A DNA stretch of 55,589 nucleotides from a bacterium. GTDB taxonomy: Bacteria > Zixibacteria > MSB-5A5 > WJJR01. The notes below the pieces were generated by a model. The model worked only from the letters and a program-made list of their open reading frames with translations. It searched no databases and was not told the DNA's origin. The stretch's first letter is position 1. Every line of letters begins with the position of its first letter. Both the position numbers and the translations under genes were made by a program. Positions 4,611-44,940 of this stretch are shown piece after piece. The DNA is taken from the NCBI GenBank assembly GCA_035559435.1, contig DATMBC010000054.1, positions 1-55,589 on the forward strand. The letters are read 5' to 3'.

Positions 4611-7553
4611 TTACTTGATCAGCACCATCTTCTTGGTGGCGGTGAATTCCGGCGTGGTCACACGGTAGAAGTACATACCGGTGGCGGCGGAAGTACCGTC
4701 GGCCGTCAGGCCGTTCCACTCAACGTTGTTGGTGCCAACATGGCCCATACCCGAGAAGGTACGGACGACCTGGCCCGCGACGTTGTAGATGGTCAGCGAG
4801 AACTCCGACTCCTTGGTTAGCGTGAACGGAATCACCGTGCCCGCGTTGAAGGGGTTCGGATAGTTCTGCTCGAGCGCATAGGAGGTCGGGACCACCGCGG
4901 AGGCGGCGTTGACCGACAACAGAGCGCCGTTGTAATCGGAGAACTGCGTCTCGACCAGCTCGATCGAACCGTCGACCGGGATGGTGACGAGGCTGTTGGC
5001 GCCGGCGGTCAGGCGCGTGGCAGCGGCTTCAACGGTCTGGGAGACCAGCACGCGGAGCTCGCCATTGGCGGCGTTCGAGCGCACGGTCAGACCGGAGTTG
5101 TTGGCGAGCACGGGCGCGCCAACCGAGCCGTTGTAGCGGAAGACCAACAGGGCCGCGCCGATGTCAACCGACGAGTTGGTGCGGACCGTGACGGCGCCGT
5201 TGGCGACATCGGTGGTCACATCAACCGAGTTGGCATACGGGGACAGCTTCGGCGAACCAGTGTTCGTTCCGGGCGGGAACGGCGCTTCGTCGCCGGTGAT
5301 GATGCGGATGAGGTAAATCAGGTCGGCCACGGTCAGCACGATACCGTCATCGTTGATGTCCGAAGCGAGAATCTGGCTCTGAGCCCACACCGGATTCCAC
5401 ACGCCGGAACCATAGATGAAGTAGTTCGTGTACAGAACCGCGTCGCCGATCTCGTTGGCAATACCGTTCAGGTTCAGATCGCCGCGGTCGTCCGGCGGCT
5501 CGCAGACGCAAATCGCGCCGCCGCAGTAGGACACTTCGGGTTCGATCACATAACCCGGCTTCGCATTGCCATCGCAATCGTAGTACGGCCCCAGGACGAC
5601 GCCATCACGCGGCACCCAGAGGGTGTTACCGGACTTGTCGGAGAAGCTGTTGTCGCCGCAATCAAACGAGCAGAAGCCAACGTGCAGGCAGCTGTTGATG
5701 AAGTTGCGGTCGGACGTGACGTTGAACGTCAGGCAGGCGAGGGTCTCGCCGTCCAGGTTGAAGTAGGACGGATCGATCTCGACGCCATTGTTCATCTCGG
5801 CGATGGAGACCAGACGGACATAGCCATCCGGGCAACCGCCCGAGCAGTTTCCGCCGAATTGGCCGGTACGATAGGTGAAGTACTCCCAACCTTGCGGACC
5901 ACCGGTGGCGCCCAGGAAGGACAGACCGCTCTGATCGTAGCAGATCAGGAGGTCATAACCGCCCGCGTCGCCGGGGAGCGCGCCGGGCTCGGCCACGACG
6001 CACACCGTCGCATGCTCGCCGTTGAGCCAGCACGCGTAGCCCGAATCCGTACCCTGCTTCACGATCGCCACGCACGGATTCTCGAAGATCAGGTCAAACG
6101 AGCAGTCGACGGTCACGCAGCCATCGGAGACCGTGTAGTCCACCGTATAGGAGGCGCCATCGCCGGCCGGACGGGTCGCGGAGAACTGGTCGCCGGCAAT
6201 CACCGGGTTCCAAGCGCCGGGCAGCCCGCCGACGTAGGTGTACACCAAACCATCGCCATCAGCCTGAGACAGATCGCCCAGATCGATCACGGTCGGCACG
6301 CCCTGCGGGGCGAGCGTCGGATCGATGGCCGTGCAGGTCGGAACCTGGTTGGTCACGCTGGCGTTGAAGGTGCATTCGATCGTGCTCTGATTGGCATCGG
6401 TCGCGCGAATGGTCACCGGCTGCGTGCCCACATCGCTGCAGGCAGTCTGCCATTCCCACGCGCCCGCGTTCAGCGCGCCCGGACCGCTGATCAGAGCCAG
6501 CGAGTACGGCGGGCAGCCACCGGAGACGGTCGGGGTCATGGAGGCCAGGGCGCCCCAGTGCACGGAGACATTGTTGCAGGCAATCTGCAACGGGGCCGGG
6601 CTGACATTCACTGTGAAGCTGACGACCGAACCACCCGACTGGCAACCGGACGGTCCACGATCCGAGGCGTAGATACTGACCTGGAACGAGGGGATGTCGT
6701 TGCACGTGGGGGTGTACGACCAGGCGCCGGTGCTGGGATCGACCGAGCCAGGGCCGGAGAGCAGATAGAATTGGATCGGATCGCCGGGATTCGGCGAGCC
6801 GTCGGCATCCGTCGCATCGGCATCGTTCGAAGCCGGCGAGCCGACTGACGCGTTCACGACCGGATTGTCGATGGTCGCGTTCGGGCAGAAGTTCGGCGGA
6901 ACCTCAACGGTGACGATACCGGCGACGAAATTCATTGCCACCAGGTTGGTGTTCCGGTCCACATACGACAGGTGGTTGGCCGGACGCACGCAGCAGGTGT
7001 CAACGATGAACGTGCCCAGATTCGGCAGCACGTTGAAGGTGAACGAATAGGACGGATTGCCGGACGGGTCAGAACCCGGATCGAGGTCGATGTCGTCACC
7101 GACGTTCTCGTCACCGGTCGAAACGGTGGCGTGCAGAATCGCGTCGGGGCTGACGAAGTCGATGTTCGCAGCCGGGGTCTGATAGGTGTTGGAGGTCGGA
7201 CCCGAGCAGGCGGTGCCACCCGGAACGGCATAGCGGTTCTGGGTGATATTCGCCGGCGGTCCCTGCGGGTTGGCCGAGCCCAGCGGGCTGTTGTTCAGAC
7301 GGCCACCAGCGGTCGCGCCACGGGTGAACGATCCCACGATGTAAGCACCACCGGTCTGCGTACGGAATTCCAACGGCATCACGAAGCCGACGGCCGCCTG
7401 ATCGTTGGAGATGTACACACCCAGTGTAACGCCAGTAGCGCCCGGAGCGACGGACTTCGATTCGACGGTGACCAAGTCAGCCGCCATCGCCGCCGCGCCG
7501 CACAGGAAGACCAAACACGCTGCCAGGCTAATGGTCTTTGCAAAACGCTTCAT
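4611..7553 (-). CDS. Large secreted cohesin/Ig/dockerin protein with C-terminal sorting domain
   Basis: 980 residues. The signal peptide is 'MKRFAKTISLAACLVFLCGA', ending near 'AMA'. An N-terminal cohesin-like domain is followed by several putative Ig/HYR-type domains rich in cysteine ('SFTVNVSPAPLQIACNNVSV', 'DGCVTVDCSFDL'). A cysteine-rich cohesin-like domain (about 540-680) precedes a dockerin-type repeat (690-754: 'RGDLNLNGIANEIGD', 'SDINDDGIVLTVADL'). Residues 891-980 are the FlgD-like sorting domain ('YALEQNYPNPFN', 'ATGMYFYRVT', 'KKMVLIK'). ATG 7553 is chosen over an upstream in-frame codon because AAGGAG lies 9 nt before it and the signal peptide then starts correctly. The many cysteines suggest disulphide-stabilised extracellular modules. 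It resembles the 1456-3711 protein in architecture, so the two are probably products of one surface system. Confidence 0.87.
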   Translation of the reverse strand: MKRFAKTISLAACLVFLCGAAAMAADLVTVESKSVAPGATGVTLGVYISNDQAAVGFVMPLEFRTQTGGAYIVGSFTRGATAGGRLNNSPLGSANPQGPPANITQNRYAVPGGTACSGPTSNTYQTPAANIDFVSPDAILHATVSTGDENVGDDIDLDPGSDPSGNPSYSFTFNVLPNLGTFIVDTCCVRPANHLSYVDRNTNLVAMNFVAGIVTVEVPPNFCPNATIDNPVVNASVGSPASNDADATDADGSPNPGDPIQFYLLSGPGSVDPSTGAWSYTPTCNDIPSFQVSIYASDRGPSGCQSGGSVVSFTVNVSPAPLQIACNNVSVHWGALASMTPTVSGGCPPYSLALISGPGALNAGAWEWQTACSDVGTQPVTIRATDANQSTIECTFNASVTNQVPTCTAIDPTLAPQGVPTVIDLGDLSQADGDGLVYTYVGGLPGAWNPVIAGDQFSATRPAGDGASYTVDYTVSDGCVTVDCSFDLIFENPCVAIVKQGTDSGYACWLNGEHATVCVVAEPGALPGDAGGYDLLICYDQSGLSFLGATGGPQGWEYFTYRTGQFGGNCSGGCPDGYVRLVSIAEMNNGVEIDPSYFNLDGETLACLTFNVTSDRNFINSCLHVGFCSFDCGDNSFSDKSGNTLWVPRDGVVLGPYYDCDGNAKPGYVIEPEVSYCGGAICVCEPPDDRGDLNLNGIANEIGDAVLYTNYFIYGSGVWNPVWAQSQILASDINDDGIVLTVADLIYLIRIITGDEAPFPPGTNTGSPKLSPYANSVDVTTDVANGAVTVRTNSSVDIGAALLVFRYNGSVGAPVLANNSGLTVRSNAANGELRVLVSQTVEAAATRLTAGANSLVTIPVDGSIELVETQFSDYNGALLSVNAASAVVPTSYALEQNYPNPFNAGTVIPFTLTKESEFSLTIYNVAGQVVRTFSGMGHVGTNNVEWNGLTADGTSAATGMYFYRVTTPEFTATKKMVLIK

Positions 7554-8543
7554 TGTGTTTTGCTCCTTAGTTCTCACTGTTGCTGATTCGAATTCCTCAA
7601 CGAGAGACACGTTCGTTCGAGGAACCCACACGATAGAAAGTCCCCCTAATTACCGTGCCAAGCGATTGCTGCTGTGCCTCAATCATTCGACAATTCCTTT
7701 AAACCTCACCTCCGTACTGCATGGACCTGTAAAGCATTCACGGTTACTGTTGACTGGAGTGAGCGTTTAAAGAACGACTCTTCGTCCGCAACACCTCCTT
7801 TCACCGTGATAACTGGTTGGTTGGGCTGTTGGTTGACGTTTGGGTTGCCATTGATAGCAGACGTTTCGCCCGCGCCGCGACGCGGCCGGACGGTGAGACC
7901 TCCGGGAACGGACACACCCCGGGCGCTCCCTTCCGATTTCGTGGCGGAAGCGGCCGGTGCGGTGCGAATGTGAAGATCCGTGTAATGCGAACTGCCGGAA
8001 CAGCGAGACATCGGGAAGACCCTTGTTTTGACCATGAGCTGACGAGTTGACGTTCGTGACCTCTCAGAACCTGGTACGACTTGCGGATCTCCTCCCCGTA
8101 GACGATTCGATGCACCCCGCGGGAGCGGTGTGCACGGCTGATTGTTGAGTTTTGTCGCCTTCTACCGGCTGCGGTACTGTGTCGCGGCGGGGTTGCTGTG
8201 CAAAGGTTTCCGCCCTTGCCCCGACGCGATGCCTGTCACTTGGTTCGCGCTACTACCCCAAGACTGTGGTAAACTGTTTCAACAAGTGTGCCGTTTATCA
8301 TGCGGTAACATCAATCGGCGAAGCCAATATAGAAGTACCCCCAAAATCTGTCAACCCACTTTCTGGTTTTTTTCGTGGGTATGGGACTGATCCAATCCCA
8401 TGTCCGGACACGAAATAGCCCGTGCCAAGGCAGTGGCTTCGCCGATCGGCCTCGCTTCAGCCCAAACCAAGTCCCTCTGCATCAACCCCCTGCAATGCAA
8501 TAGCTTGTATATAGGGGTCAAAAGAGGCCTTTCAAGCGCCGCT
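7554..8543. other. Long intergenic region, no gene recognised
   Basis: About 990 bp between the kbl operon end and a surface-protein gene. Part of it would be the 5' leader of the minus-strand gene at 7553. A G/A-rich stretch with two Shine-Dalgarno-like sequences (complement of about 7720-7805) precedes short frames that I do not accept as genes. No tRNA, riboswitch or mobile element was recognised. The 8150-8540 part is relatively AT-rich, and no T-tailed hairpin was found after kbl. Confidence 0.5.
7633..7661 (-). promoter_or_regulatory. Weak sigma70-like promoter candidate
   Basis: TTGGCA (7656-7661) and TTCTAT (7633-7638) are 17 bp apart, upstream of the start at 7553. The -35 is good and the -10 poor (3 of 6). 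Confidence 0.25.
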
Positions 8544-10170: not shown

Positions 10171-11877
<1,707 letters not shown>

Positions 11878-13406: not shown

Positions 13407-14825
13407 CTAGAAGTTTCGGTTGAACTCCGCTTCGATCTGGGCCGCCGGGAGCGCGGGATCGAGAAACCGGGCGCTGTCAAAATTGGCCCAGCGCGGATTG
13501 GGACGGCGGCGGGTGACGCGGTGGATGTTCAGCAGGTGGCGGACGGTGATGTTGTCGGTGGTGAAGTTGTTGGCGCCGGCGCCGCAACTGAGCGTGAACG
13601 ACGGGGGCAGGGTGTTGTAGATCCCCCCCAGCGCCCCATGGGCGGCCGGCATGTTGACCAGAATCCGGGCGGCGTGGATGGCGCGGGAAAAGTACTCGAT
13701 CCGCTCGTCGGTGTTGGAGTAGATCACCGCGGTGTGCCCGGTGCCGCCGAAACGCGTGATTTCGGAACAGCGGTAGATGCCCGCCTCGAAATCGTCTTCA
13801 ATGTAGAACGCGAGGATGGGGGCGAGGATTTCGGCCGACAGCGGATACTCCGGACCGACGCCATCCAATTTGGCGATCAACAGAACGGCATCGTCGGGAA
13901 CGGTGATCCCGGCGCTGCGGGCAATCGCCTGCACGCTCTGGCCGACCACGGTCGGGCGCATCATCCCGCGCTCGGGATCATAGGCAATTGTCCCGACCTT
14001 TTCGATTTCCTCCGGCGAGAGGAAATGGGCCTTCTGCCGCTTGAATTCGGCGATCACTTCGTCGGAGACCTGCCGCTTGACCACGATGGCCTGCTCGCTG
14101 GCGCAGATGGTGCCGTAATCAAAAGTCTTGGACTCGACAATGCAGCGAACCGCGAATGGGATATCGGCGGTGCGTCCGATGTAGACGGGCACATTGCCCG
14201 GCCCGACCCCGAGAGTGGGGGTGCCTGATTTGGCGGCCTTCTGGACCACGGAGTTGGTCCCGGTGGCGAGGATCAGGGCCAGACGGCGATTGACCATCAG
14301 TTCCTGGAGCGTGTCTTCGGAGGCCTTGCCCAGCCATTGAATGCAGTGCTCCGGGGCGCCGGCGGACAGGGCGGCCTGGTAACAAATCTCGGCCGCGGCG
14401 GTGGTGCAACGCCGCCCCCCGCCCGGCGGGCTGAAGATGATCGGATTGCGGGTCTTCAGCGCGATCAGGCACTTGAAGATGGTTGTGGAGGTCGGATTGG
14501 TGACGGGGATGAATGCAAGGATCGGACCAAGCGGCTGCGCGACATCGACGATGCCGCGGCGCGGGTCATCGCCCACCACGCCGACCGTCTTGCGCTTCTT
14601 GATGTCATCGTAAACCAACTGGGTGGCGATGACATTCTTGATCACCTTGTCTTCCCACTTGCCGATGCCGGTCTCCTCGTGCGCCAGTTTCGCCAGATCG
14701 ACGCGGTGGTCGAGGGCGGCGAGGTAGACGGCGCGGACGATCGCATCGGTCTTCGCCTGGTCGAAACCGCGAAACGCCATCGCGGCGGCGGTGGCATGCT
14801 GGATGAGTTCGGGCGCGCGGTTCAT
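13407..14825 (-). CDS. CoA-acylating aldehyde dehydrogenase (EutE/PduP/AdhE-N type)
   Basis: 472 residues. It converts an aldehyde, NAD+ and CoA to acyl-CoA. The catalytic cysteine is C241 in 'ESKTFDYGTICASEQA', the pattern shared by AdhE N-domains and BMC aldehyde dehydrogenases. 'GVGPGNVPVYIG' and 'PVTNPTSTTIFKCLIALKTR' are further family blocks, and there is no fused alcohol dehydrogenase. The C-terminal ~30 residues ('DPALPAAQIEAEFNRNF') extend beyond the catalytic fold and could form an amphipathic helix like an encapsulation peptide (inference). ATG 14825 lies 16 bp after the BMC shell gene; the Shine-Dalgarno is weak, suggesting coupling. Substrate is not readable from sequence; acetaldehyde or a threonine-derived aldehyde is plausible. 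Confidence 0.87.
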   Translation of the reverse strand: MNRAPELIQHATAAAMAFRGFDQAKTDAIVRAVYLAALDHRVDLAKLAHEETGIGKWEDKVIKNVIATQLVYDDIKKRKTVGVVGDDPRRGIVDVAQPLGPILAFIPVTNPTSTTIFKCLIALKTRNPIIFSPPGGGRRCTTAAAEICYQAALSAGAPEHCIQWLGKASEDTLQELMVNRRLALILATGTNSVVQKAAKSGTPTLGVGPGNVPVYIGRTADIPFAVRCIVESKTFDYGTICASEQAIVVKRQVSDEVIAEFKRQKAHFLSPEEIEKVGTIAYDPERGMMRPTVVGQSVQAIARSAGITVPDDAVLLIAKLDGVGPEYPLSAEILAPILAFYIEDDFEAGIYRCSEITRFGGTGHTAVIYSNTDERIEYFSRAIHAARILVNMPAAHGALGGIYNTLPPSFTLSCGAGANNFTTDNITVRHLLNIHRVTRRRPNPRWANFDSARFLDPALPAAQIEAEFNRNF

Positions 14826-14841
14826 GGCACTCGGCGTGTCT

Positions 14842-15345
14842 TTAGGCGCGGCGGGCATCGGCCTGCCGCAACAGGCGCAGGAGCGTGTCCTTGTCGGCCA
14901 GGGCGATTTCACGCCCGGCGATGGGCAGATCGCCGCGGCGGCGCGCCAGGCTGCGCAGCGCCACCACGGTCATCGAGTCATAGTCCGGCGTGCCGCGCCC
15001 GAGGCGGGATGGTTCGGGGGCAGTGCTCGGCGCATCGCCGCGCGACGCGGTGCGTCCCCGCCACTTCTGATTGGGACGATCGATCAGCCCGCCGAGATCG
15101 TCGTGGGGACGGGGGATGACCGTGTGGGCATGGACCCGGCCAAGCCGCAGACAGGCATTGACACCGGCCTCAACCGCGGCCTGCACCGCCGCCAGATCGC
15201 CTTCTATATAGATGGTGACCAGCGCCGGATCGGTCTGTTCGGTGCGGATGACGACAATCGACGAAGCTTTGGCGGCGGCGTCGGCGGCTTCCATCGCGCC
15301 GACCAGCCCGACTGTCTCGATCAACCCCAACGCCTGCCTTTCCAT
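14842..15345 (-). CDS. Bacterial microcompartment (BMC-domain) shell protein with C-terminal extension
   Basis: 167 residues. Residues 4-84 are one BMC domain of the PduA/EutM/CcmK class: 'ALGLIETVGLVGAMEAADAA', 'VTIYIEGDLAAVQAAVEAG' and 'VHAHTVIPRPHDDL'. Such domains form hexamers that tile polyhedral protein shells. A proline/arginine-rich linker (about 88-118) leads to a helical C-terminal segment (121-167, 'MTVVALRSLARRRG', 'KDTLLRLLRQA') resembling Rho-N/SAP-type helix-extension-helix modules, a non-standard addition. ATG 15345 has AAGGAG upstream. The next gene is an acylating aldehyde dehydrogenase, the classic BMC enzyme. No pentameric vertex (BMC-P) gene is visible in this window, so whether a closed shell forms cannot be judged here. 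Confidence 0.88.
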   Translation of the reverse strand: MERQALGLIETVGLVGAMEAADAAAKASSIVVIRTEQTDPALVTIYIEGDLAAVQAAVEAGVNACLRLGRVHAHTVIPRPHDDLGGLIDRPNQKWRGRTASRGDAPSTAPEPSRLGRGTPDYDSMTVVALRSLARRRGDLPIAGREIALADKDTLLRLLRQADARRA

Positions 15346-21164: not shown

Positions 21165-22730
21165 ATGGCGCGATTACACGAATACCAGGGTAAGGCGTTG
21201 TTTCAAAAGGCCGGGTTCGCCATCCCCAAAGGGACGGTCGTCCGTGATCCGTCTGAAATCGATTCTGCCCTGGCACAGTCGGGTTTGCCGGCGGTGATCA
21301 AGGCGCAGGCCTGGACCACCTCGCGGGCCGCCCAGGGGGCGATCGCCTTCGCCAACAGCGCCGAAGAAGCGAAAGCCGCGGTGACCCGGATGTTGGCGCT
21401 TAAGATCGCCGGCTTCGATGTCAACGAGGTTCTGGTCGAAGAGAAGGTTGACATTGCCCGCGAATTCTACGCGGGGATAGTGGTCGACGACGCCAACAAG
21501 ACCCCGGTGGTGATCTTCTCATCGGTCGGCGGCTCGGGCATTGAAGAGCTGGCCCGCAAGTATCCCAGGAACGTTTCGCGCACGCCGATCGATGTGCGAT
21601 TCGGGCTGCGCGAGTTCGAAGCGCGTGACGCGGTGCGTCGAACCGGCGTTTCCGGTACGCTGCAGTCGGAGTTGGCCAGGGCGCTGGTGATGCTCTGGAA
21701 GGTGGCGCGCCAATGGGAGGCGCGTTCGGCCGAGATCAATCCGCTGGTGCTGAAGACCGACGGCAAGCTGGTGGCCTGCGACAGCCGCATCACGGTTGAT
21801 GACAACGCGGTCTTTCGTCATCCCGAACTGGGCATCGAGATCGCCCGTGAATTCGGCCGTCCGCCGACCGAACTGGACAAGATCGCCTGGACGGTGGAGC
21901 GCGACGACTACCGCGGCACGTTTTACTTCATCGAGATGGCGCGCGGGTACAAACGCGGCGAGGGATATATCGGCTTTCATGGCGCCGGCGGCGGCGGATC
22001 GATGATGTCGATGGATGCCCTGGTTAAGCGCGGTTACAAGATCGCCAATTTTACCGACACCTCCGGCAACCCCCCGGCCTCAAAGGTGTATCGCGCCGCC
22101 AAGATCATCCTCAGTCAGCCCAACATCGACGCCTATTTCGGCTCCGGATCGGGAGTGGCCTCGCAGGAGCAGTTCCACTCGGCCCGTGGCCTGGTCAAGG
22201 CCTTCTGGGAGGAGAAACTGTCCATCCCCGCGGTTATCCGCCTGGGCGGGAACGGCGAGGATGAGGCGGTGCGCATCCTGACGGAGTACACGAAGGGACT
22301 GCCGGCGCCGGTGGAGGGCTACAAGAAGGACGACACCGCCGACTTTTGCGCCGAGCGGCTGACAGCGCTGTTGGCCCAGGTCAGGGACAAGACCGCCAGG
22401 CGGGTTCTGGCGGTGCCATCGGCGCCGACGATGCCGGCGAAAGAACCATACAAGTTCGAGACGCCGACCGGATCGATCACCTTCGATCATGCGGTCTGCC
22501 GCACCTGCGACTCGAAGACCTGCATCCACACCTGTGTGCCGCAGATTCTGAAGGAAGAAAACGGGGTGGCGGTGCTCAACATCAGCCGCGAGGACGCCAA
22601 GGCGGGCAAGTGCATCGAATGCCTCGCCTGCGAGGTGGAGTGCCGAATCGGCGGCGCCGGCGGCGGACAGGTCCACCTGCCGATCGCGGGCCTGGACGAA
22701 TACCGCCAGAAAGCGATGGCGCAGGCATGA
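21165..22730 (+). CDS. SucC-like (citryl-CoA or succinyl-CoA synthetase) subunit fused to a ferredoxin domain
   Basis: 521 residues. Residues 1 to ~420 are an ATP-grasp/CoA-ligase beta subunit: 'RLHEYQGKALFQKAGFAIPK', 'RSAEINPLVLKTDGKLVACD' and 'SVGGSGIEELARKYPRNVSR'. Residues 445-493 add a two-cluster ferredoxin: C445-x2-C448-x4-C453-x3-C457 and C483-x2-C486-x2-C489-x3-C493, a FixX-like spacing. Family knowledge: SucC, CcsA and ATP-citrate lyase share this fold; the fused iron-sulphur domain is not part of the standard enzymes. Because the third gene is a citryl-CoA-lyase-like protein, citryl-CoA synthetase large subunit is the favoured reading; succinyl-CoA synthetase is the alternative. 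ATG 21165 is preceded by GAGGA, and its stop overlaps the next start (ATGA). Confidence 0.82.
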   Translation: MARLHEYQGKALFQKAGFAIPKGTVVRDPSEIDSALAQSGLPAVIKAQAWTTSRAAQGAIAFANSAEEAKAAVTRMLALKIAGFDVNEVLVEEKVDIAREFYAGIVVDDANKTPVVIFSSVGGSGIEELARKYPRNVSRTPIDVRFGLREFEARDAVRRTGVSGTLQSELARALVMLWKVARQWEARSAEINPLVLKTDGKLVACDSRITVDDNAVFRHPELGIEIAREFGRPPTELDKIAWTVERDDYRGTFYFIEMARGYKRGEGYIGFHGAGGGGSMMSMDALVKRGYKIANFTDTSGNPPASKVYRAAKIILSQPNIDAYFGSGSGVASQEQFHSARGLVKAFWEEKLSIPAVIRLGGNGEDEAVRILTEYTKGLPAPVEGYKKDDTADFCAERLTALLAQVRDKTARRVLAVPSAPTMPAKEPYKFETPTGSITFDHAVCRTCDSKTCIHTCVPQILKEENGVAVLNISREDAKAGKCIECLACEVECRIGGAGGGQVHLPIAGLDEYRQKAMAQA

Positions 22731-23650
22731 GCATCCTGGTCGACGAAACCAAGAAGGTCATTGTGCAAGGTATCACCGGGCGCGAGGGCATGGCGCGCAC
22801 CAAGTTGATGCAGCGTTATGGCACCCGAGTGGTCGCCGGTTGCACTCCCGGCAAGGGGGGCGAGGATGTCCTCGGCGTGCCGGTCTACGACACGGTGATG
22901 GAAGGGGTCGAAAAGTGCGGCGGGCTGGATGTCTCAGTGATCTTCGTGCCGGCGCCGCTGGTCAAGAACGCCGCCTTGGAGGCGATTGCCGCCGGGATCA
23001 AACTGCTGGTGATCGTGCCCGACCGTGTGCCGATCTACGACGTCCTCGAAATCGCCGCCGCGGCGCGTGAGACGGGGGCGCGGTTTGTCGGACCAAACAC
23101 GCTGGGACTGCTGTCCCCCGGCAAGGCGGTCTTCGGCATGATGGGCGGCTCGGCGGCGGCGGCCAAGGATTGGTTTCTGCCGGGACGGGTCGGGGTGGCA
23201 TCGCGTTCGGGCGGGATCACCTCATCGATTGCCTACTACCTCTCCCGCGCCGGCATCGGACTTTCGACCATTGTGCATGTGGGCGGGGATGCCATCGTGG
23301 GCACCGATCTGCCGGCGGTCATGGAACTTTTCCAGGACGATCCCGACACCGATGCGATGGCGATGTTCGGCGAGATTGGCTCGTCGCAGGAGGAGCGGGT
23401 CGCCGACCTGATCGCGTCCGGACGGGTCACCAAGCCGTTGGTGGCCTACATCGGCGGACGCGGGGCGCAGTCGGGGACACGCTTCTCGCACGCCGGCGCG
23501 ATCATCGAAGGGGACCGGGGAACGTACGAAGGCAAAGTGAAACGGCTGCGCGCAGTCGGCGCGGTGGTGGTCGACAACTTCGGCGACATTCCCGACGCGG
23601 TCAAGTCGGTCATCCGTCCGATGGAGACCGGCAAGATCACGGTCGGGTAG
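22727..23650 (+). CDS. SucD-like (citryl-CoA or succinyl-CoA synthetase) alpha subunit
   Basis: 307 residues, a complete alpha subunit. An N-terminal CoA-binding Rossmann domain ('VIVQGITGREGMARTKLMQR', 'VVAGCTPGKGG') is followed by a ligase domain with 'GVASRSGGITSSIAYYLSRA'. The phospho-acceptor histidine is H255 in 'TRFSHAGAIIEG'. It starts inside the stop of the preceding gene (ATGA), so the two subunits are translationally coupled into an alpha-beta enzyme. In context it should form citryl phosphate and citryl-CoA from citrate, ATP and CoA, with succinate as the alternative substrate. An upstream in-frame extension overlaps the previous gene and is not used. Confidence 0.85.
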   Translation: MSILVDETKKVIVQGITGREGMARTKLMQRYGTRVVAGCTPGKGGEDVLGVPVYDTVMEGVEKCGGLDVSVIFVPAPLVKNAALEAIAAGIKLLVIVPDRVPIYDVLEIAAAARETGARFVGPNTLGLLSPGKAVFGMMGGSAAAAKDWFLPGRVGVASRSGGITSSIAYYLSRAGIGLSTIVHVGGDAIVGTDLPAVMELFQDDPDTDAMAMFGEIGSSQEERVADLIASGRVTKPLVAYIGGRGAQSGTRFSHAGAIIEGDRGTYEGKVKRLRAVGAVVVDNFGDIPDAVKSVIRPMETGKITVG

Positions 23651-23661
23651 AGGAACAGATC

Positions 23662-24438
23662 ATGGGCGACAATCACTGGACATCGGCGATCACCGAGATC
23701 GGGCCGAATATCATCCGTCTGCGCGGCTACCCGGTCGAAGAGTTGATGGGGAACGTGGGTTTCGCCGAGGCGATCCACCTGGCGTTGCAGGGCGAACTGC
23801 CCGATCCGGCCACCGGCAAGCTGCTCAACGCGATCTTTGTCTCCTCGATCGATCACGGGACATCGCCGCCCTCGGTTCTGGCCACGCTCACGGTCGCCTC
23901 GACCGGGGCGCCCCTCGGCTCGGCGGTGGCCGCCGGGATTCTGGCGATCTCGCGCTACCATGGCGGGGCGATCGAGGACTGCATGAAGGCGCTCAACGAG
24001 GCGATCGGGTTTACCCGCAAGGATGGCCTCTCCCCCGCCGAGGCCGCGGCGCGCGTGCTGGATATGTTCAAGGCGAAAAACCAGCGTGTCTCGGGCTTTG
24101 GGCACCGACTGCACACCAAGGACCCGCGCACGACGCGTCTGCTGTCGATGTGCGACGAACTGGGCAAGACCGGCGACGGGGTGCGGATGGCGCGCGCCTT
24201 TGAGGAGAACTTCGCCCGCGCGGGCAAGCCATTGCCGCTGAATGTGGATGGCGCCATCGCCGCGGTCTTAATCGACCTGGGCATTGCGCCGGGAATGGCC
24301 AACGCCTTTTTCATGATCGCGCGCCTGCCGGGGCTGGTCGCGCACGCCCACGAGGAGCGGACGCGCTACAAGCCGATGCGGGTGGTCGATCCGAAGGACA
24401 CCGGTTACGACGGGCCGCCGTTGCGGCATTTGCCTTAA
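23662..24438 (+). CDS. Citryl-CoA lyase / ATP-citrate-lyase C-domain-like protein
   Basis: 258 residues, a compact citrate-synthase fold much shorter than true citrate synthase (about 370-430). Catalytic candidates follow the ATP-citrate lyase pattern: 'SSIDHGTSPPS' (H65), 'SGFGHRLHTKDPR' (H148) and 'PLNVDGAIAAVLIDLG' (D196). Expected reaction: citryl-CoA to acetyl-CoA plus oxaloacetate. ATG 23662 has AGAGGA upstream, 11 bp after the SucD-like gene. With the two preceding genes this reconstructs the separated citryl-CoA synthetase/lyase system known from Hydrogenobacter (CcsAB and Ccl). The reverse, citrate-forming direction cannot be excluded. Confidence 0.8.
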   Translation: MGDNHWTSAITEIGPNIIRLRGYPVEELMGNVGFAEAIHLALQGELPDPATGKLLNAIFVSSIDHGTSPPSVLATLTVASTGAPLGSAVAAGILAISRYHGGAIEDCMKALNEAIGFTRKDGLSPAEAAARVLDMFKAKNQRVSGFGHRLHTKDPRTTRLLSMCDELGKTGDGVRMARAFEENFARAGKPLPLNVDGAIAAVLIDLGIAPGMANAFFMIARLPGLVAHAHEERTRYKPMRVVDPKDTGYDGPPLRHLP

Positions 24439-25096: not shown

Positions 25097-26548
25097 GTGG
25101 ACCATTCGGAACGGAATCGGCGGCTGGCCCTGTGGATCGCGGGGTCAGCCGTGTTGTTGTCGTTTGCGGCGGCGCTGCCGTTTGTGTTGGGGGCGCAGTT
25201 CCACGCCGATGACTTTCTGCTCTTGCCGCGTGAGCGTGTCGATTGGGTGACCGCGGTCGCCGGGTATCTGAGCCACCCTGATCCCGAAGCGGCGCACTAC
25301 TACCGTCCCGGCTGCCGCATTGTGCAGCAGTCATTGCAAGCGCTGTTCGGCAGCGATCCGGTGGTGTTCCATGCCTGGAATCTGCTGCTGCATTTGGCGT
25401 CAGTGTATCTGCTCTACCGGCTGGCGCGTTCACTGACGGGCGACCGTCTGATTGCCGGAATCGCCGCCGCCATCTTCCTGGTACACCCCGCGCATGATGA
25501 ACCGGTGATCTGGATCACGGGCATCAGCGGGTTGACCGAATCGCTCTGCCACCTGGCGGCGCTGGCGGCATTTGACGCTTATCTGCGCAAGGGGCAAAGG
25601 CGGCATGGCTGGCTTGTGCCGGTCCTCTTCCTCATCGCGCTTTTGCACAAGGAATCGGCCACCGCCATGCTGTTGACACTGCCACTTCTGTGGTGGTACC
25701 GCGGACACCCCGGGAAGCGTTCGTGGCCGATCGTCGCAGTGGCCGCGCTGGCGGCAGGCATGGCCGTGTGGCGGGGATTAATCGGGGTCGAATCGGCCGC
25801 CACGTGGGAGAGTCTGACCTTTCACCCGCTCGCCTGGGCGCGCAACATCATGTTCTACCTGGCGCAGCTCCTGCTGCCGGTGCGGTCGATCTTCCACGCA
25901 ATCGGTTTTGACCGTTACTATCAGTGGCGCGATGCGCTGCCGGTGGTGCCGGGCGCGTGGGTTTACACGGCGGGGATTGTCCTGTTGGCGGCGGTGGCGG
26001 TGTGGGCGGGAGCGCGCCTGTGGCCGCATCTGCCACGCGCGGCGAGACTCGGACTCGGCCTGGCGCTGCTGGCAATTGCGCCCCTGCTGATATCGCGCTA
26101 CACCGGATTGCGACTTTTGTACCTCTCCTCGGCCTTCCTGTCGCTTTCGCTGGCGGCGGTGATGGTGTGGCGGCGGGAGTGTCCGATCATGACCTGGCTC
26201 GCGGCCCTGTGGGTGGTGGCGATGTCAGTCTCGTGGGTGGAACGCGCGGTGGTCTGGCACGACGCTGGGCTCATGGCGCGTCAGGTGATGCTGGAAGCGG
26301 CCAAGGCGCGCAAGCACACGCCCGACCATACGGCCGCGGTGTATCTGGATGTGCCGCGCCGCCACCTGGGCGCGTTCGTGTTTCCAATTGGCTTTGAGGC
26401 CGCGGTGACCCACGACGCCCACACGGCGCCGGGGTCGGTGTTCGATTACGACAATCCACGGAGCGACACCACGCGGATCCCGGCCAGCCGGATGTGGTAC
26501 GGCTGGAATGGGGCGCGGTTTGAGGAGGTGTCGGCGCCGGGCCGCTGA
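25097..26548 (+). CDS. Polytopic membrane protein, GT-C glycosyltransferase-like
   Basis: 483 residues with about ten hydrophobic segments. After TM1 comes an acidic loop 'GAQFHADDFLLL', reminiscent of the catalytic Asp loop of GT-C (PMT/GT39/GT83-type) enzymes that use polyprenyl-linked sugars. 'YYRPGCRIVQQSLQALFGSD' and 'HPAHDEPVIWITGISGLTE' fit the same class. A soluble C-terminal part of about 90 residues follows. The start is read as GTG 25097 with a weak ribosome site. Located between the HD and aconitase genes but functionally unrelated to them; it probably modifies lipid or surface polymers. Family assignment is moderate. Confidence 0.65.
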   Translation: MDHSERNRRLALWIAGSAVLLSFAAALPFVLGAQFHADDFLLLPRERVDWVTAVAGYLSHPDPEAAHYYRPGCRIVQQSLQALFGSDPVVFHAWNLLLHLASVYLLYRLARSLTGDRLIAGIAAAIFLVHPAHDEPVIWITGISGLTESLCHLAALAAFDAYLRKGQRRHGWLVPVLFLIALLHKESATAMLLTLPLLWWYRGHPGKRSWPIVAVAALAAGMAVWRGLIGVESAATWESLTFHPLAWARNIMFYLAQLLLPVRSIFHAIGFDRYYQWRDALPVVPGAWVYTAGIVLLAAVAVWAGARLWPHLPRAARLGLGLALLAIAPLLISRYTGLRLLYLSSAFLSLSLAAVMVWRRECPIMTWLAALWVVAMSVSWVERAVVWHDAGLMARQVMLEAAKARKHTPDHTAAVYLDVPRRHLGAFVFPIGFEAAVTHDAHTAPGSVFDYDNPRSDTTRIPASRMWYGWNGARFEEVSAPGR

Positions 26549-26615: not shown

Positions 26616-28550
26616 ATGGGACAGACATTGGTTGAAAAGATCGCGACCGCGCACGCGGTGGGACTGAAGCCGGGGCAGTTGGCGTATTCGGGGGACTTTA
26701 TCACCATCCGTCCCAAGCATGTCATGACGCACGACAACACCAGCGCGGTGATGGGCAAGTTCAAGTCGATCGGCGCGACCCGTGTCGCCGACCCGCGCCA
26801 GCCGGTCTTCGCCATCGACCATGACATCCAGAACACAACGCCGGAGAACCTGGCCAAGTACGCCAAGATCGAGGAGTTCGCCAAAAAGCATGGCATCGAC
26901 TTCTACCCGGCCGGCACCGGGATTAGCCACCAGGTGATGGTTGAGGAAGGGTATGTGACGCCGGGCTCCATGGTGGTGGGATCGGACTCGCATTCCAATC
27001 TCTACGGCGCGGCCTCGGCGCTGGGCACGCCGGTGGTGCGCACCGATGCCGCCTCGCTGTGGGCCACCGGGGTGACTTGGTGGCAGGTGCCCCCCATCGC
27101 CAAGGTGAAGTTGGTCGGGAAACTCCGGCCGGGTGTGGTCGGCAAGGATGTCATCATTGCGCTCTGTGGGCTGTTCAATCACGATGAGGTGCTCAATTTC
27201 GCCTGCGAGTTTGTCGGCGATGGGATCGCCGCGTTGTCGATGGATCAGCGGATGAGCATCGCCAACATGACGACCGAATGGGGCGCGCTGGCAGGCGTCT
27301 TCCCGTTTGACGCCGTCCTCCGCGACTACCTCTACGGCCGCGCTGACTATCTGGCCCGAAAGGGCACGCCGCGGCTGACGCGCGCGCAGGTCGATCAATG
27401 GTACAGCCATCCGCTCGAGGCCGACCCTGACGCGCATTATGATGTCGAGCTGACGCTCGACCTCGGCACGGTCATTCCGCATGTCTCGGGGCCGAATCAT
27501 GTCAAGACGATGGCGGCGCTGCCGGAGATCGAGCCGAAGAAGGTGAAGATCGACAAGGCCTACCTACTCAGCTGCGTGAACGCGCGTCTGGAAGACCTCG
27601 GCGAAGCGGCGAAGGTCCTGCGCGGCCGCAAGGTTGCCGATGGCGTGAAGTTCTATGTCGCCGCGGCCTCGGCCAACATCCAGGCCGAAGCGGAGCGGCT
27701 GAGTTACTGGAAGACGCTGGTTGATGCCGGAGCGATAACGCTGCCGTCGGGGTGCGGGCCCTGCATCGGGCTGGGCACCGGCACGCTGGAGGCGGGCGAA
27801 GTGGGGATTTCCGCGACCAACCGCAATTTTCAGGGACGGATGGGACATCGCGATGCGCAGGTCTATCTCGCCAGCCCGGCGGTCGTAGCGGCTTCGGCGG
27901 CGGCGGGTTACATCGCCGCGCCGGAGGCCTTCGAGAATGTCAACGGCCGCTTCAGCATCGTGCAACGTGGCCGCGCCCGACGCGAGGCGCAGAAACTCGA
28001 AATCGTGCCCGGATTTCCGGCGCGTGTCTCCGGACGCCTTCTCTGGCTTCCGGTCGACAATCTCAACACCGACGGCATTTACTCCGGCAAGTTGACCTAC
28101 CGCGACGATGTGACGCCGGAGGAGATGGCGATGGCGTCCTTTGAGAACTACGATCCGAACTTCAAGTCCATCGGACAAAAAGGCGATGTGGTCGTGGCCG
28201 GGCAGAATTTCGGCACCGGCTCTTCGCGCGAACAGGCTGCGACCTGCCTCATCCATCGCGGCATTCCCTGTGTGATTGCCTACTCGTTCTCGGAAACTTA
28301 CAAGCGCAACGCCTTCAACAATGGCTTCGTCGTCTTTGAGTGCCCGGAATTGGTCGAGCATCTGCGCGCCAAGCACCGGGGCGCGACGGACAAGACGATC
28401 GTCTCCGGGACTATCGATATCGACTACCAGGCCTCGGTGATCACGTTTGATGGGCGTCGTTTCTCCTTCCCCGCGCTGTCGACGGTGGCGCAGGAACTGG
28501 TGGTGGCCGGCGGAGCGGAGGAGCTGGTCAAGCGGCGGCTGGCGGGGTGA
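26616..28550 (+). CDS. Aconitase family protein (fused large and small domains, homoaconitase-like)
   Basis: 644 residues. The [4Fe-4S] ligands are C320 ('LLSCVNARLEDLGEAA'), C380 and C383 ('LPSGCGPCIGLG'). 'VVGSDSHSNLYGA' and 'ISATNRNFQGRMGHRD' are superfamily signatures, and the swivel domain is fused at the C-terminus ('GQNFGTGSSREQAA'). The sequence style is closer to homoaconitase/isopropylmalate isomerase than to AcnA or AcnB. Next to a citrate-cleaving system and an isocitrate-dehydrogenase-family gene, interconversion of citrate and isocitrate is the most economical role. Homoaconitate is the alternative, but no homocitrate synthase is present. ATG 26616 follows a strong AGGAGG. Confidence 0.85.
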   Translation: MGQTLVEKIATAHAVGLKPGQLAYSGDFITIRPKHVMTHDNTSAVMGKFKSIGATRVADPRQPVFAIDHDIQNTTPENLAKYAKIEEFAKKHGIDFYPAGTGISHQVMVEEGYVTPGSMVVGSDSHSNLYGAASALGTPVVRTDAASLWATGVTWWQVPPIAKVKLVGKLRPGVVGKDVIIALCGLFNHDEVLNFACEFVGDGIAALSMDQRMSIANMTTEWGALAGVFPFDAVLRDYLYGRADYLARKGTPRLTRAQVDQWYSHPLEADPDAHYDVELTLDLGTVIPHVSGPNHVKTMAALPEIEPKKVKIDKAYLLSCVNARLEDLGEAAKVLRGRKVADGVKFYVAAASANIQAEAERLSYWKTLVDAGAITLPSGCGPCIGLGTGTLEAGEVGISATNRNFQGRMGHRDAQVYLASPAVVAASAAAGYIAAPEAFENVNGRFSIVQRGRARREAQKLEIVPGFPARVSGRLLWLPVDNLNTDGIYSGKLTYRDDVTPEEMAMASFENYDPNFKSIGQKGDVVVAGQNFGTGSSREQAATCLIHRGIPCVIAYSFSETYKRNAFNNGFVVFECPELVEHLRAKHRGATDKTIVSGTIDIDYQASVITFDGRRFSFPALSTVAQELVVAGGAEELVKRRLAG

Positions 28551-28896: not shown

Positions 28897-30015
28897 ATGG
28901 CGAAATACAGGATCGCGTGGATGCCCGGAGACGGGGTTGGCAACGATGTGATGGATGCCTGTAAGATCGTGCTCGATGCCCTCAAGCTGGACGCCGAGTA
29001 CATCCCCGCCGACATCGGCTGGGAGTTCTGGCGCAAGGAGGGCAACGCCCTCCCCGACCGGACATTGAAGGTCCTGGGCGAAACCCACTGCGCGCTCTTC
29101 GGTGCAATCACCTCCAAGCCCAAGGAAGAGGCCGAGGCCGAGCTGGTCCCGGAACTGAAAGGCAAGGGGTTGGTCTACCAGTCGCCGATTGTGAAACTGC
29201 GGCAGACCTTGAACTTGAAAACCAACCTGCGGCCCTGCAAGGCCTACCCCGGCAACCCGCTCAATTACCGCGACGACATCGATCTGGTGGTCTTCCGCGA
29301 GAACACCGAAGACCTGTACTCCGGTGTCGAGTTTCATCCGGTGCCCGACGAGGTGCGTCAGACGCTGGCCAAGCACAACAAGAACATGAAGAAGTTCGAC
29401 CACGTGAAGGCGGAGGACCTGGCGATCTCCTGCCGCATCAACTCACGCGAGGCGTGCCGGTCGATTGTCACCGCCGCCTTCGATTATGCCAAGCAGTTCG
29501 GCTACAAGTCGGTCACGGTGGTGGAAAAGCCGAATGTGATCCGTGAAACCTCGGGGCTGTTTGTGCGCACCGCCCGCGAAGTGGCCAAGAACTACCCGGG
29601 CATCGAGCTGATCGAAACCAACATCGACGCCATGTGCATGTGGCTGATCAAGAATCCGCAGTCCTACGGCGTGTTGGTCGCCTCGAACATGTTTGGCGAC
29701 ATTATCTCCGATCTGTGCGCGCAATTGGTCGGTGGACTGGGGTTCGCTTCCTCGGGCAACATCGGCGACAAGTACGCGGTGTTCGAGCCCACGCACGGCT
29801 CGGCGCCGAAGTATGCGGGCCAGTACAAGGTCAACCCCATGGCGATGTTTCTCACCGCCAAGCTGATGCTCGATTGGCTGGGCGAGAAGGCCATGGCTGA
29901 CAAGTTGGAAAAGGCCATCGCGGCGGTGATCAAGGAGGGCAAGGTCCGTACCTATGATATGGGCGGCAAGGACTCCACGCTTGACATGGCCAGGGCGGTG
30001 GCAGCGAAGCTGTAG
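28897..30015 (+). CDS. Isocitrate/isopropylmalate dehydrogenase family enzyme, probable NADP isocitrate dehydrogenase
   Basis: 372 residues, a beta-decarboxylating dehydrogenase. 'WMPGDGVGNDVMDA' starts the fold; 'VVFRENTEDLYSGVEF' and 'NMFGDIISDLCAQLVGGLG' carry Mg and substrate residues. The cofactor loop 'HGSAPKYAGQYKVNP' has K305-Y306, the pair that selects NADP in E. coli Icd (NAD enzymes have D-I). The substrate loop 'YQSPIVKLRQTLNL' differs from the 'SLNVALRQ' of Icd and looks like homoisocitrate or archaeal types. In context, reductive carboxylation of 2-oxoglutarate or its reverse is likely. AAGGAG precedes the ATG, and a strong terminator follows. Confidence 0.83.
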   Translation: MAKYRIAWMPGDGVGNDVMDACKIVLDALKLDAEYIPADIGWEFWRKEGNALPDRTLKVLGETHCALFGAITSKPKEEAEAELVPELKGKGLVYQSPIVKLRQTLNLKTNLRPCKAYPGNPLNYRDDIDLVVFRENTEDLYSGVEFHPVPDEVRQTLAKHNKNMKKFDHVKAEDLAISCRINSREACRSIVTAAFDYAKQFGYKSVTVVEKPNVIRETSGLFVRTAREVAKNYPGIELIETNIDAMCMWLIKNPQSYGVLVASNMFGDIISDLCAQLVGGLGFASSGNIGDKYAVFEPTHGSAPKYAGQYKVNPMAMFLTAKLMLDWLGEKAMADKLEKAIAAVIKEGKVRTYDMGGKDSTLDMARAVAAKL

Positions 30016-41983: not shown

Positions 41984-43408
41984 CTACAGCAGCCAGAAGA
42001 GCGAACTGCCGGCCAGGTCCAGGAAGGGTTGCGGATACAGGCCGGGGATCATCGTGACCAGTGTGGCCAGCCAGAGGGCGGGGCGCAGCGAGGCGGGCGG
42101 ATCGATGGCAGCCGACTCTTCGGTCGGAGGCCACATCCACATCGCCACCACCACGCGCAGGTAGTAGTAGACCGACAACGCCGAGAACAGGACTGCCCAG
42201 ATGACCAGGCCGACCAGATCGGCGCGCACAGCTTCGGAGAAGACGACGAACTTGCCGGCAAAGCCGACGGTCGGCGGTATGCCCGCCAGCGCGAACATGA
42301 AGATCGAAAGGACCGCCGCCAGCGCCGGGTGGCGTTTGCCGAGGCCGGCGACATTCTCCAGCGTGGCGCTCACACCACCATGGCTGATGGCGCAGAGCAC
42401 GGCGAAGCCGCCCACCGACATTCCGGCATACCCGAGCAGATAGAAACTCACGGCCCCGACCGCGCTGGACCCTCCAGCAGCGAGGCCGACCAGGGCATAG
42501 CCCATGTGGGCAATGCCGGAATAGGCGAGCAGGCGTTTCAGATCATGCTGGCGCAAGGCCAGGAGATTGCCGACCAGCATCGACAGCCAGGCGATCCCCC
42601 AGAGAAACGACTCCATCGGAATGTCGGCGAACACGGAGAGCGTGAGACGCAGAAGCAACCCGACCGCCGCCGCCTTGGGCGCGGCGGAATAGAAGGCAAC
42701 GGTGGGTGTGGGCGCGCCGGCGTAGACATCGGGCGCCCAGGCATGGAACGGCGCCGCGGCAATCTTGAAGAGGAAGCCGATCGCAATCAGGATTCCGCCG
42801 ATCCAGACCAGCAGACCGTGAGCGTCGCCCTGCGCGATCGCCCGGCCGATCTGCTCGAGATTGAAACTGCCGGTGGCGCCATAGACCAGCGCGATGCCAA
42901 AAAGCAGGATGCCGGAGGCAAAGGCGCCATTGAGGAAATACTTCGCGCCCGCCTCGACATGCTCATCATGTTTGCCATGCCCCGCGGCCATGGCATACAG
43001 CGGCAGCGAGAGGATTTCGAGGGCGATGAACAGGACCGCCATGTGGGCGCCGGTGACCAGCAAGTCCATGCCGATCACCGACAGCAGCAGCAGGGCGAAA
43101 TAATCGACGCCGAAGATCGTGTTGGCGCCTTTGGCCTTCCAGGAGCCGGCGGCGGTGAGCGTGGCCAGCAGCGCGCCGGTGCAGATCACCAGACGGATCA
43201 TGTGGGCAAAACGGTCGGCGAGGACCATGCCGGAGAAACCGACTTCGATGTTCTCAAACTGCAGCGCGACGCTGACGGCGGCGGCGAAAATCACGAAGGC
43301 CGCCAGCCAGCCGGCGTTGAACTTCCCCTTCGAGGTGACATCGAGCAGCATCACCACGAACACGCCCAGACAGAGGATGATTTCGGGGGCGATCGCGGCC
43401 CAATTCAT
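41984..43408 (-). CDS. nuoN: NADH-quinone oxidoreductase subunit N
   Basis: 474 residues, about 14 transmembrane segments, Mrp-antiporter-type proton channel of complex I. Signatures: 'FKIAAAPFHAWAPDVYAGAP' with the channel lysine/histidine, 'LKRLLAYSGIAHMGYALVGL' and 'LAGIPPTVGFAGKFVVFSEA'. It starts in the nuoM stop (ATGA). It is the last nuo gene; downstream lies the retron-like island on the same strand, with no clear T-tailed hairpin between them. Confidence 0.95.
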   Translation of the reverse strand: MNWAAIAPEIILCLGVFVVMLLDVTSKGKFNAGWLAAFVIFAAAVSVALQFENIEVGFSGMVLADRFAHMIRLVICTGALLATLTAAGSWKAKGANTIFGVDYFALLLLSVIGMDLLVTGAHMAVLFIALEILSLPLYAMAAGHGKHDEHVEAGAKYFLNGAFASGILLFGIALVYGATGSFNLEQIGRAIAQGDAHGLLVWIGGILIAIGFLFKIAAAPFHAWAPDVYAGAPTPTVAFYSAAPKAAAVGLLLRLTLSVFADIPMESFLWGIAWLSMLVGNLLALRQHDLKRLLAYSGIAHMGYALVGLAAGGSSAVGAVSFYLLGYAGMSVGGFAVLCAISHGGVSATLENVAGLGKRHPALAAVLSIFMFALAGIPPTVGFAGKFVVFSEAVRADLVGLVIWAVLFSALSVYYYLRVVVAMWMWPPTEESAAIDPPASLRPALWLATLVTMIPGLYPQPFLDLAGSSLFWLL

Positions 43409-44940
43409 CGCGTCACCTCCGCGGCCGGCAGGGTGAATGACTCGGACGGGTCGGCCGGAGCGCCATATTGCGGCGGCTTCACCTGTTCGACCCAGGTCTT
43501 CAAGTCCGGTTCAATGCGCGCCAGGAAGGGCTTCGGGTAGACGCCGATCCAGATGATCAGCGCCACAAGCGGGATGACCACCGCCAGCTCGCGGCGGTCG
43601 AGGTCGAGAATCTTCTCATTCTCCGGATGAGTGAGCGGACCAAAGAAGACCCGTCGCACCAGCCAGAGCATGTAGCCGGCGGCGAGAATCACGGCGGTGG
43701 TCGAGATGATCGCCGCGGCCGGGCTGGTCTGGAAGGCGCCCAGGAGAATCAGAAACTCGCCGACGAAACCGTTGGTGCCCGGCAGACCGATCGAGGACAA
43801 CGTCACGATCAGGAAGATGATGGTGAAGACCGGCACGGTGGCGAAGATGCCGCCATAGTCGGCGATCTGACGGGTATGACGGCGCTCATAGATCATCCCG
43901 ATGAGCAAAAAGAGCGCGCCGGTCGAGATGCCATGATTGATCTGCTGCAACAGCGCGCCGGAGGCGCCGATCAGATTGAGCGAGGCCAGCCCAAGCATCA
44001 CAAAGCCGAGGTGCGAGACCGAGGAATAGGCCACCAGACTCTTGACATCGGACTGGATCAGGGTCATCGCCGCGCCATAGACGATGCCGATCACCGCCAG
44101 CACGCGGATGGTGTCGGCCAATACCGCATACCCGTCGGGGAACAGCGGCATGGCGAAACGCATGAAGCCATAGGTGCCCAGTTTCAGCAGCACACCGGCC
44201 AGCATGACCGATCCGGCGGCGGGCGCCTGCACATGCGCATCGGGCAGCCAGGTGTGGAACGGAAACATCGGCACCTTGATGGCAAACGCGAGCGCAAAGG
44301 CAGCGAAGAGCCAGAGCTGTGCGCCGGCGGGAATGTTGAGTTGATACCAGGCGAACAGGTCGAAGGTGCCATTGCCGCCGGCGTTGCTGTACTGGTAAGT
44401 CCAGAGAATGGCCACCAGCATCAGCAGCGATCCGACCATGGTGTAGAGCACGAACTTGACGGTGGCGTAGATGCGACGTTCCCCGCCCCAGATGCCGATC
44501 AGGAAGTACATCGGGATCAGCATCGCCTCCCAGAAGATATAGAAGAGGAAGACATCGGTGGCGCAGAAGGCGCCGATCACGCCGGTCTCGAGGAACAGAA
44601 GCGAAGCATAGTAGCCGCGTCTGCCCTGCTTGATGCCGGTAAACGACGAGACCACCGCGATGATGGTCAGAAGCGTGGTGAGCAGGACCAAAAGCAGCGA
44701 GATGCCATCGAGCCCGAGGGCGTAATTGATGCCGAAGCGGGGGATCCAGGCCGCCTTTTCGACGAACTGGAATCCGCCGCCGGGGACAAAGCCGAACCAG
44801 AGCCAAAGCGACGCAACCAGTTCGACGGCCGAGGCAATCGCGGCGACAATCCCCAGTTCCTTCCCCTCATCGCGCGGCCAGAGAAGCAGGGCGATGCCAG
44901 CGACGGCGGGCCAGAAGATGAGGAACGAGAGCAGACCCAT
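43405..44940 (-). CDS. nuoM: NADH-quinone oxidoreductase subunit M
   Basis: 511 residues, polytopic proton-pumping subunit. 'NYALGLDGISLLLVLLTTLL', 'FLFYIFWEAMLIPMYFLIGI' (TM5 glutamate), 'AFAIKVPMFPFHTWLPDAHV' (channel lysine) and 'DVKSLVAYSSVSHLGFVMLG' identify it. ATG 44940 is chosen because it overlaps the nuoL stop (TAATG); a 20-residue in-frame extension inside nuoL is rejected. Confidence 0.95.
   Translation of the reverse strand: MGLLSFLIFWPAVAGIALLLWPRDEGKELGIVAAIASAVELVASLWLWFGFVPGGGFQFVEKAAWIPRFGINYALGLDGISLLLVLLTTLLTIIAVVSSFTGIKQGRRGYYASLLFLETGVIGAFCATDVFLFYIFWEAMLIPMYFLIGIWGGERRIYATVKFVLYTMVGSLLMLVAILWTYQYSNAGGNGTFDLFAWYQLNIPAGAQLWLFAAFALAFAIKVPMFPFHTWLPDAHVQAPAAGSVMLAGVLLKLGTYGFMRFAMPLFPDGYAVLADTIRVLAVIGIVYGAAMTLIQSDVKSLVAYSSVSHLGFVMLGLASLNLIGASGALLQQINHGISTGALFLLIGMIYERRHTRQIADYGGIFATVPVFTIIFLIVTLSSIGLPGTNGFVGEFLILLGAFQTSPAAAIISTTAVILAAGYMLWLVRRVFFGPLTHPENEKILDLDRRELAVVIPLVALIIWIGVYPKPFLARIEPDLKTWVEQVKPPQYGAPADPSESFTLPAAEVTR

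Follow-up and report, generated by a model that had tools for sequence, protein, structure and literature searches.

The locus raises two questions: which acid is activated by a CoA ligase whose chain ends in a ferredoxin-type domain, and what iron–sulphur clusters might do in such an enzyme, acyl-CoA ligation being a reaction that needs no electrons. The window, by which we mean the whole stretch of 55,589 nucleotides that was analysed, encodes the ligase together with a set of genes for citrate-related enzymes (table 1). Our preferred reading, to which we assign a probability of roughly 55%, is that the protein is a ferredoxin-fused, citryl-CoA synthetase-like β subunit which, with a lyase, interconverts acetyl-CoA plus oxaloacetate and citrate, the ferredoxin part serving as a redox gate or as a docking or electron port.

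Table 1. The ligase gene, its parts and the genes that follow it in the window.
Feature	Position	Strand	Description
Fusion ligase gene	21165-22730	+	single uninterrupted ORF by translation, ATG to stop, 521 aa
SucC-like ligase core, residues 1-401	21165..22367	+	ATP-grasp domain and CoA-ligase domain; motifs GGGGS, SGNPPASK; family-specific loop GSGSGVASQEQF
Variable linker, residues 402-436	22368..22472	+	lowest conservation within the protein
2[4Fe-4S] ferredoxin-type domain, residues 437-500	22473..22664	+	C445/448/453/457 and C483/486/489/493
C-terminal tail, residues 501-521 and stop	22665..22730	+	invariant L505-P506, end helix
SucD-like partner subunit	22727..23650	+	ATGA overlap with ligase gene; His255 (phosphohistidine position), Glu216, SRSGG
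Citryl-CoA lyase-like protein (citrate synthase family)	23662..24438	+	starts 11 bases past the SucD stop; H74, H109, H157, R158, R165, D205 (numbered in the 267-aa reading from 23635)
HD-domain protein (HDIG-like), 177 aa	24542..25075	+	fourth cluster gene, conserved at 42-87% identity
Putative polytopic membrane protein	25097..26548	+	no Pfam match; 39% homologue at the same place in a sister genus (L101)
Aconitase/homoaconitase-type hydro-lyase	26616..28550	+	scores as homoaconitase, 761 bits against a cut-off of 530
Isocitrate/homoisocitrate dehydrogenase-type enzyme	28897..30015	+	SPIVxLR substrate helix

In profile searches, residues 3–376 match the full β chain of succinyl-CoA synthetase (SCS; TIGR01016, 237 bits; ATP-grasp_2, 2e-46), and the curated cut-offs for SCS β are missed (237 against 375.55 bits for TIGR01016 and 242 against 370 for NF001913). 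The top structural match of the ligase is Thermus SCS, and SCS is also the best match overall by sequence. AlphaFold2 modelled the full-length protein with a pLDDT of 90.7; in the linker the values are 70–85 and the mean column identity of the family alignment is 0.48. A ninth invariant cysteine, C395 (in DFCAER), lies in the ligase core, immediately ahead of the linker and outside both cluster motifs.

The original prediction placed eight cysteines in two sets (C445–C457 and C483–C493) after a complete SucC-like domain, and these positions proved exact. The first set (C445, C448, C453, C457) reads CxxCx4Cx3C and the second (C483, C486, C489, C493) CxxCx2Cx3C, together the spacing of a 2[4Fe-4S] ferredoxin. 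The domain probably carries two [4Fe-4S] clusters, with ligation presumably swapped in the usual way, three cysteines of one set acting with the last cysteine of the other. AlphaFold2 predicted it with a mean pLDDT of 96.1 alone and about 89–95 within the full protein. Its assignment to a ferredoxin family is not confident: the window's domain does not reach the Pfam Fer4 cut-offs (Fer4_9, 18.7 against 27 bits), Fer4_9 matches at E ≤ 0.01 in 30 of 36 family members, and OorD and HgcB give weak profile scores in 24 and 30 of the 36, respectively. With the domain as query, Foldseek returned no match below 0.001 and the PDB sequence search only a chance match. The small dicluster ferredoxins (OorD/KorD, HgcB and FixX of EtfABCX, 7koe_D) have the eight-cysteine 2[4Fe-4S] pattern in common with it and give weak profile and fold matches, but they usually occur as subunits of their own rather than as part of a CoA ligase chain.

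A scan of a species-genome collection with six peptide probes yielded 347 relatives, the best 80 of which were kept and, with the window's own, make 81 full-length proteins. The domain pair sought in other genomes is present in every one of these 81 (the best 80 of 347 plus the window), with the eight-cysteine pattern intact and an inter-set spacer of 25–26 residues; a chance origin of the pattern is excluded. Because one of the probes lay within the ferredoxin part, a second search free of this bias was made in 132 genomes of the window's phylum. Eight of them, the window's included, encode a protein at 57–100% identity, and all eight proteins run through the ferredoxin domain. Homologues without the domain, which had been named at the outset as the sign of an isolated fusion or misassembly, did not turn up: no close relative lacking it was found above 40% identity among the 132 genomes, where the remaining SucC matches are at most 40% identical and of ordinary length as listed. 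Presence within the genus is patchy, two same-genus genomes (G156 and G157) being without the fusion.

In a maximum-likelihood tree of the ligase core, every fusion falls into a single clade (support 100/99), which a long branch separates from the SucC proteins that lack the domain; the Chloroflexota make up one subclade, and the window's protein sits among the Zixibacteria. The 81 proteins (the best 80 of 347 relatives plus the window's) are spread across about ten bacterial phyla, their record titles naming Zixibacteria, Chloroflexota, KSB1, Marinimicrobia, Aminicenantes, Calditrichota, Acidobacteriota, Gemmatimonadota, Cloacimonadota, Coatesbacteria, WOR-3/Hydrothermota and two ‘Deltaproteobacteria’ bins. 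Misassembly or an isolated fusion is ruled out by retention of the domain in 81 of 81 proteins, by the eight full-length fusions in the phylum scan and by the single clade. Judged from these sequences, the fusion is ancient and widespread. No description of a ferredoxin–CoA synthetase fusion was found in the literature searched, in which subscription journals are mostly absent; planctomycete genes for citryl-CoA synthetase (CCS) and citryl-CoA lyase (CCL) are reported from hot-spring mats, with Fe-S unmentioned in the section consulted (PMC5459899).

The fusion protein would form the large (β) subunit of a heteromer with the SucD-like protein encoded directly downstream, in which the phosphohistidine, its partner glutamate and SRSGG are near-invariant across the family. 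A link to citrate had been suggested from the outset, and the citryl-CoA lyase gene downstream of the ligase upholds it. The best PDB match of the lyase is the Hydrogenobacter citryl-CoA lyase (6hxp, 5.8e-50; next match 3.5e-17), and the active-site His, Asp and Arg of the citrate synthase (CS) family are near-invariant in 52 members. It exceeds the cut-off of NCBIfam PRK06224.1-6 (NF004869, 236 against 212 bits) and does not reach the equivalog model NF004864 (215 against 261). Ligase and lyase together would catalyse acetyl-CoA + oxaloacetate + ADP + Pi ↔ citrate + CoA + ATP by way of citryl-CoA, and the aconitase-type and isocitrate dehydrogenase (IDH)-type enzymes would carry the carbon onward to 2-oxoglutarate.

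One gene order turns up repeatedly in different phyla: ligase, SucD, lyase and HD protein, followed by the aconitase-type and IDH-type genes. Most family members lie in such a cluster. One genome (that of L012) has the ligase, with CCL not found, and joined SucD–CCL frames of approximately 565–615 aa occur in three loci (L031, L042 and L063). A 43% homologue of the HD protein was seen near SucC/SucD genes without a ferredoxin domain in L098; the HD protein may serve CoA-ligase pathways generally.

The ligase itself gives mixed signals as to its substrate. RDDxRG, GGGGS and GNPPAxKxY are common to the ligase and citryl-CoA synthetase (6hxq) and are not shared with SCS. The citrate-binding loop and arginine of CCS and ATP-citrate lyase (ACLY), on the other hand, are missing. 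In their place are the loop GSGSGVASQEQF (GVASQ), which is nearly invariant in the fusion family and resembles neither the GGTANNT of citryl-CoA synthetase nor the NIFGGI of SCS, and Leu360, which stands at the position of ACLY Arg379, as in SCS. For human ACLY we take the citrate loop to be GGSIANFT, the positions of N346 and R379 to be the citrate-binding loop and arginine, and SRSGG of the alpha part to be present as well. By identity, the ligase is roughly as far from SCS as from CCS (26–37% in the domain compared). Citrate is the substrate we infer from the shared motifs and the gene neighbourhood.

The CcsAB citryl-CoA synthetase and the citryl-CoA lyase of Hydrogenobacter thermophilus (6hxq, 6hxp) likewise pair a SucC/SucD-type heteromer with a CS-family lyase encoded alongside, and agree in the GGGGS and GNPP motifs and in the lyase catalytic residues. 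The solved CcsA subunit, however, has only 429 aa and no ferredoxin domain, in line with the early claim that known CoA synthetases do not carry one, and its citrate loop and arginine differ from those of the ligase. The known CcsAB systems work in the reverse TCA cycle of autotrophs; many fusion hosts, by contrast, come from groups known to be heterotrophic. ATP-citrate lyase (human ACLY; Chlorobium AclAB, 6hxj; Methanothrix, 6hxi) catalyses the net reaction proposed here, but unites its SucD part with its CS part in a single chain and has no Fe-S, while the fusion clusters mostly have three separate genes. Because the citrate-site residues compared are absent, we keep the ligase out of the classical CcsA family; it probably works like citryl-CoA synthetase plus lyase, yet stands apart from classical CcsA.

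Succinyl-CoA synthetase (Thermus, 3ufx; E. coli, 1jkj) is alike in fold, ATP-grasp domain and phosphohistidine, with approximately 34% identity to the Thermus β chain, but has no ferredoxin domain and a different loop. The fusion could be a divergent SCS, its ferredoxin domain tethering 2-oxoglutarate:ferredoxin oxidoreductase for direct handover of succinyl-CoA and the CCL gene being an incidental neighbour. Such an enzyme would explain why the best overall sequence and fold matches are to SCS, why Leu360 is SCS-like and why the ferredoxin domain resembles OorD; canonical SCS is absent from three of 30 genomes, which leaves room for succinate as substrate, and by eye some loci adjoin propionyl-CoA carboxylase-like genes or have methylmalonyl-CoA mutase-like genes upstream (L050, L058 and L082). 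We nonetheless regard it as unlikely, since the other 27 genomes encode a canonical SucC above the curated cut-off separately, the ligase scores 237 bits against the 375-bit SCS threshold, and citrate is indicated both by the GGGGS/GNPP motifs and by the repeated association with CCL, aconitase and IDH. A plain SCS annotation as the main reading is ruled out by the missed cut-offs and the separate SucC.

The window's genome also encodes a complete citrate synthase, another aconitase, additional IDH-type enzymes and SCS (its canonical SucC copy is divided between two contigs, C39 and C60), so the cluster is dispensable for citrate in this organism, where by gene content it is a complete parallel version of the route from acetyl-CoA and oxaloacetate to 2-oxoglutarate. 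The same redundancy would suit a cluster that handles a homologue or analogue of citrate (2-methylcitrate, homocitrate or similar), in a pathway parallel to a TCA segment and not a duplicate of it. The ligase has a substrate loop of its own, and MmgE/PrpD-like genes lie beside the cluster IDH gene in nine loci (L009, L015, L020, L056 and others; by eye). The homoaconitase score and the SPIVxLR helix, which is like that of homoisocitrate dehydrogenases rather than IDH, keep a citrate homologue in play. We think it distinctly unlikely all the same. CS-fold lyases and synthases are known only with oxaloacetate, so that a CS-fold lyase favours oxaloacetate, hence citrate or methylcitrate, and speaks against homocitrate; and in genome G022 the cluster is the only encoded route found from citrate to 2-oxoglutarate: neither citrate synthase nor a PF00682 protein nor canonical SucC turned up there, and the cluster IDH is the sole PF00180 dehydrogenase.

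Returning to citrate as the substrate, we analysed the distribution of citrate synthase among 59 ligase-bearing genomes. Citrate synthase was present in 32 (in G003 as a fragment), 21 carried the lyase without a full-length citrate synthase, and six had neither. The 21 genomes come mostly from one Chloroflexota clade that includes Thermoflexus: among the 23 members of the Chloroflexota subclade, 16 have the lyase without citrate synthase, two have both and five neither. Random gaps in draft genomes cannot easily produce this pattern. A relative of Re-citrate synthase was not found in 20 of the 21 genomes, whose partial matches are at most 36% identical, as expected of isopropylmalate synthases. 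The one exception, G029, encodes a Re-citrate synthase-like protein, recognised by sequence (L083:13666-15069, minus strand), and its gene adjoins the ligase–lyase cluster divergently on a Coatesbacteria chromosome. As most of the Chloroflexota clade has no other recognisable citrate synthase, the cluster is the only candidate found for the citrate step there. We suggest tentatively that in this large clade, Thermoflexus included, and at scattered points in other phyla, the place of classical citrate synthase has been taken by a reversible citryl-CoA synthetase/lyase that conserves ATP and is gated by ferredoxin. The redox state of the ferredoxin pool, acting by way of the ligase's own clusters, would then set the direction of carbon flow between acetyl-CoA and citrate.

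The ligase–lyase couple is chemically reversible, and the route is probably near equilibrium and able to run both ways. Cleavage is not a given, since many of the hosts are heterotrophs that lack citrate synthase. Desulfobacter reportedly runs ATP-citrate lyase oxidatively, with formation of ATP (Moller et al. 1987, as relayed in PMC9768450 and PMC12137691). In Thermoflexus hugenholtzii, 13C data revealed CO2 from C1 of pyruvate and none from C2,3, an uncoupling that the authors found surprising (PMC8129789). The fusion bears on this puzzle: the Thermoflexus genome in our set (L044/G161, a related MAG rather than the type strain) encodes the lyase but lacks a full-length citrate synthase. One caveat is that the same genome contains a second CS-family domain (G161:C65:17756-18370), C-terminal in a 610-aa frame that is possibly an ATP-citrate lyase alpha chain.

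As to the ferredoxin domain, the clusters would gate the ligase by redox, or would dock with and pass electrons to ferredoxin-dependent 2-oxoacid oxidoreductases, and citrate flux would thereby be tied to the reduction state of the ferredoxin pool; we infer, as originally suggested, that citrate cleavage could come under redox control. We favour a link to ferredoxin metabolism, as a redox gate or a docking port, because the eight cysteines are constant even though the preceding linker varies more than any other part of the protein in the family alignment, because PF01855 2-oxoacid:ferredoxin oxidoreductase-type proteins occur in 16 of 16 genomes tested, and because korABC and hdrA adjoin the ligase in one lineage. 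In this Anaerolineae lineage, korA, korB, korC and a 1140-aa HdrA-like gene are divergent from the ligase gene (L034:1061-6993 and L046:1158-7090, both minus strand), with no separate small ferredoxin (KorD) seen between them; korA is also found in L064. A fixed redox-partner gene beside the ligase was considered and rejected: nothing is universal, the korABC–hdrA arrangement being confined to the one lineage and NADH-dehydrogenase-like genes appearing, by eye, at two KSB1 loci.

The lack of one conserved partner gene would also fit a domain that is structural or a relic, stabilising the heteromer or a contact and having no redox role, as would a reaction without an electron-transfer step and attachment through a variable linker. 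A relic, however, would not hold eight cysteines invariant across a very deep clade while the linker diverges, and the domain is retained in genomes that have no haem-copper oxidase as well as in the window's organism, with several such oxidases; we consider this explanation improbable. The fusion may instead gate entry to the citric acid cycle in response to redox state. Citrate formation versus cleavage decides whether the cycle runs forward or backward, and a gate of this kind would, if real, give facultative and anaerobic bacteria a testable way to switch its direction. Within the literature searched it would be the first CoA synthetase of the superfamily with a covalently attached redox module, and we know of no earlier one.

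Elsewhere in the window, an aldehyde dehydrogenase gene adjoins one for a bacterial microcompartment shell protein (13407-15345, minus strand; BMC domain, 7e-23), with an AMP-ligase nearby (10171-11877); this is a possible microcompartment locus. The 1006-aa protein encoded at 4611-7631 (minus strand) has a C-terminal sorting domain of the type IX secretion type. Consecutive large ORFs occupy 41984-46877 (minus strand), the first of which (41984-43408) encodes a proton-antiporter-type subunit of respiratory complex I/Mrp.
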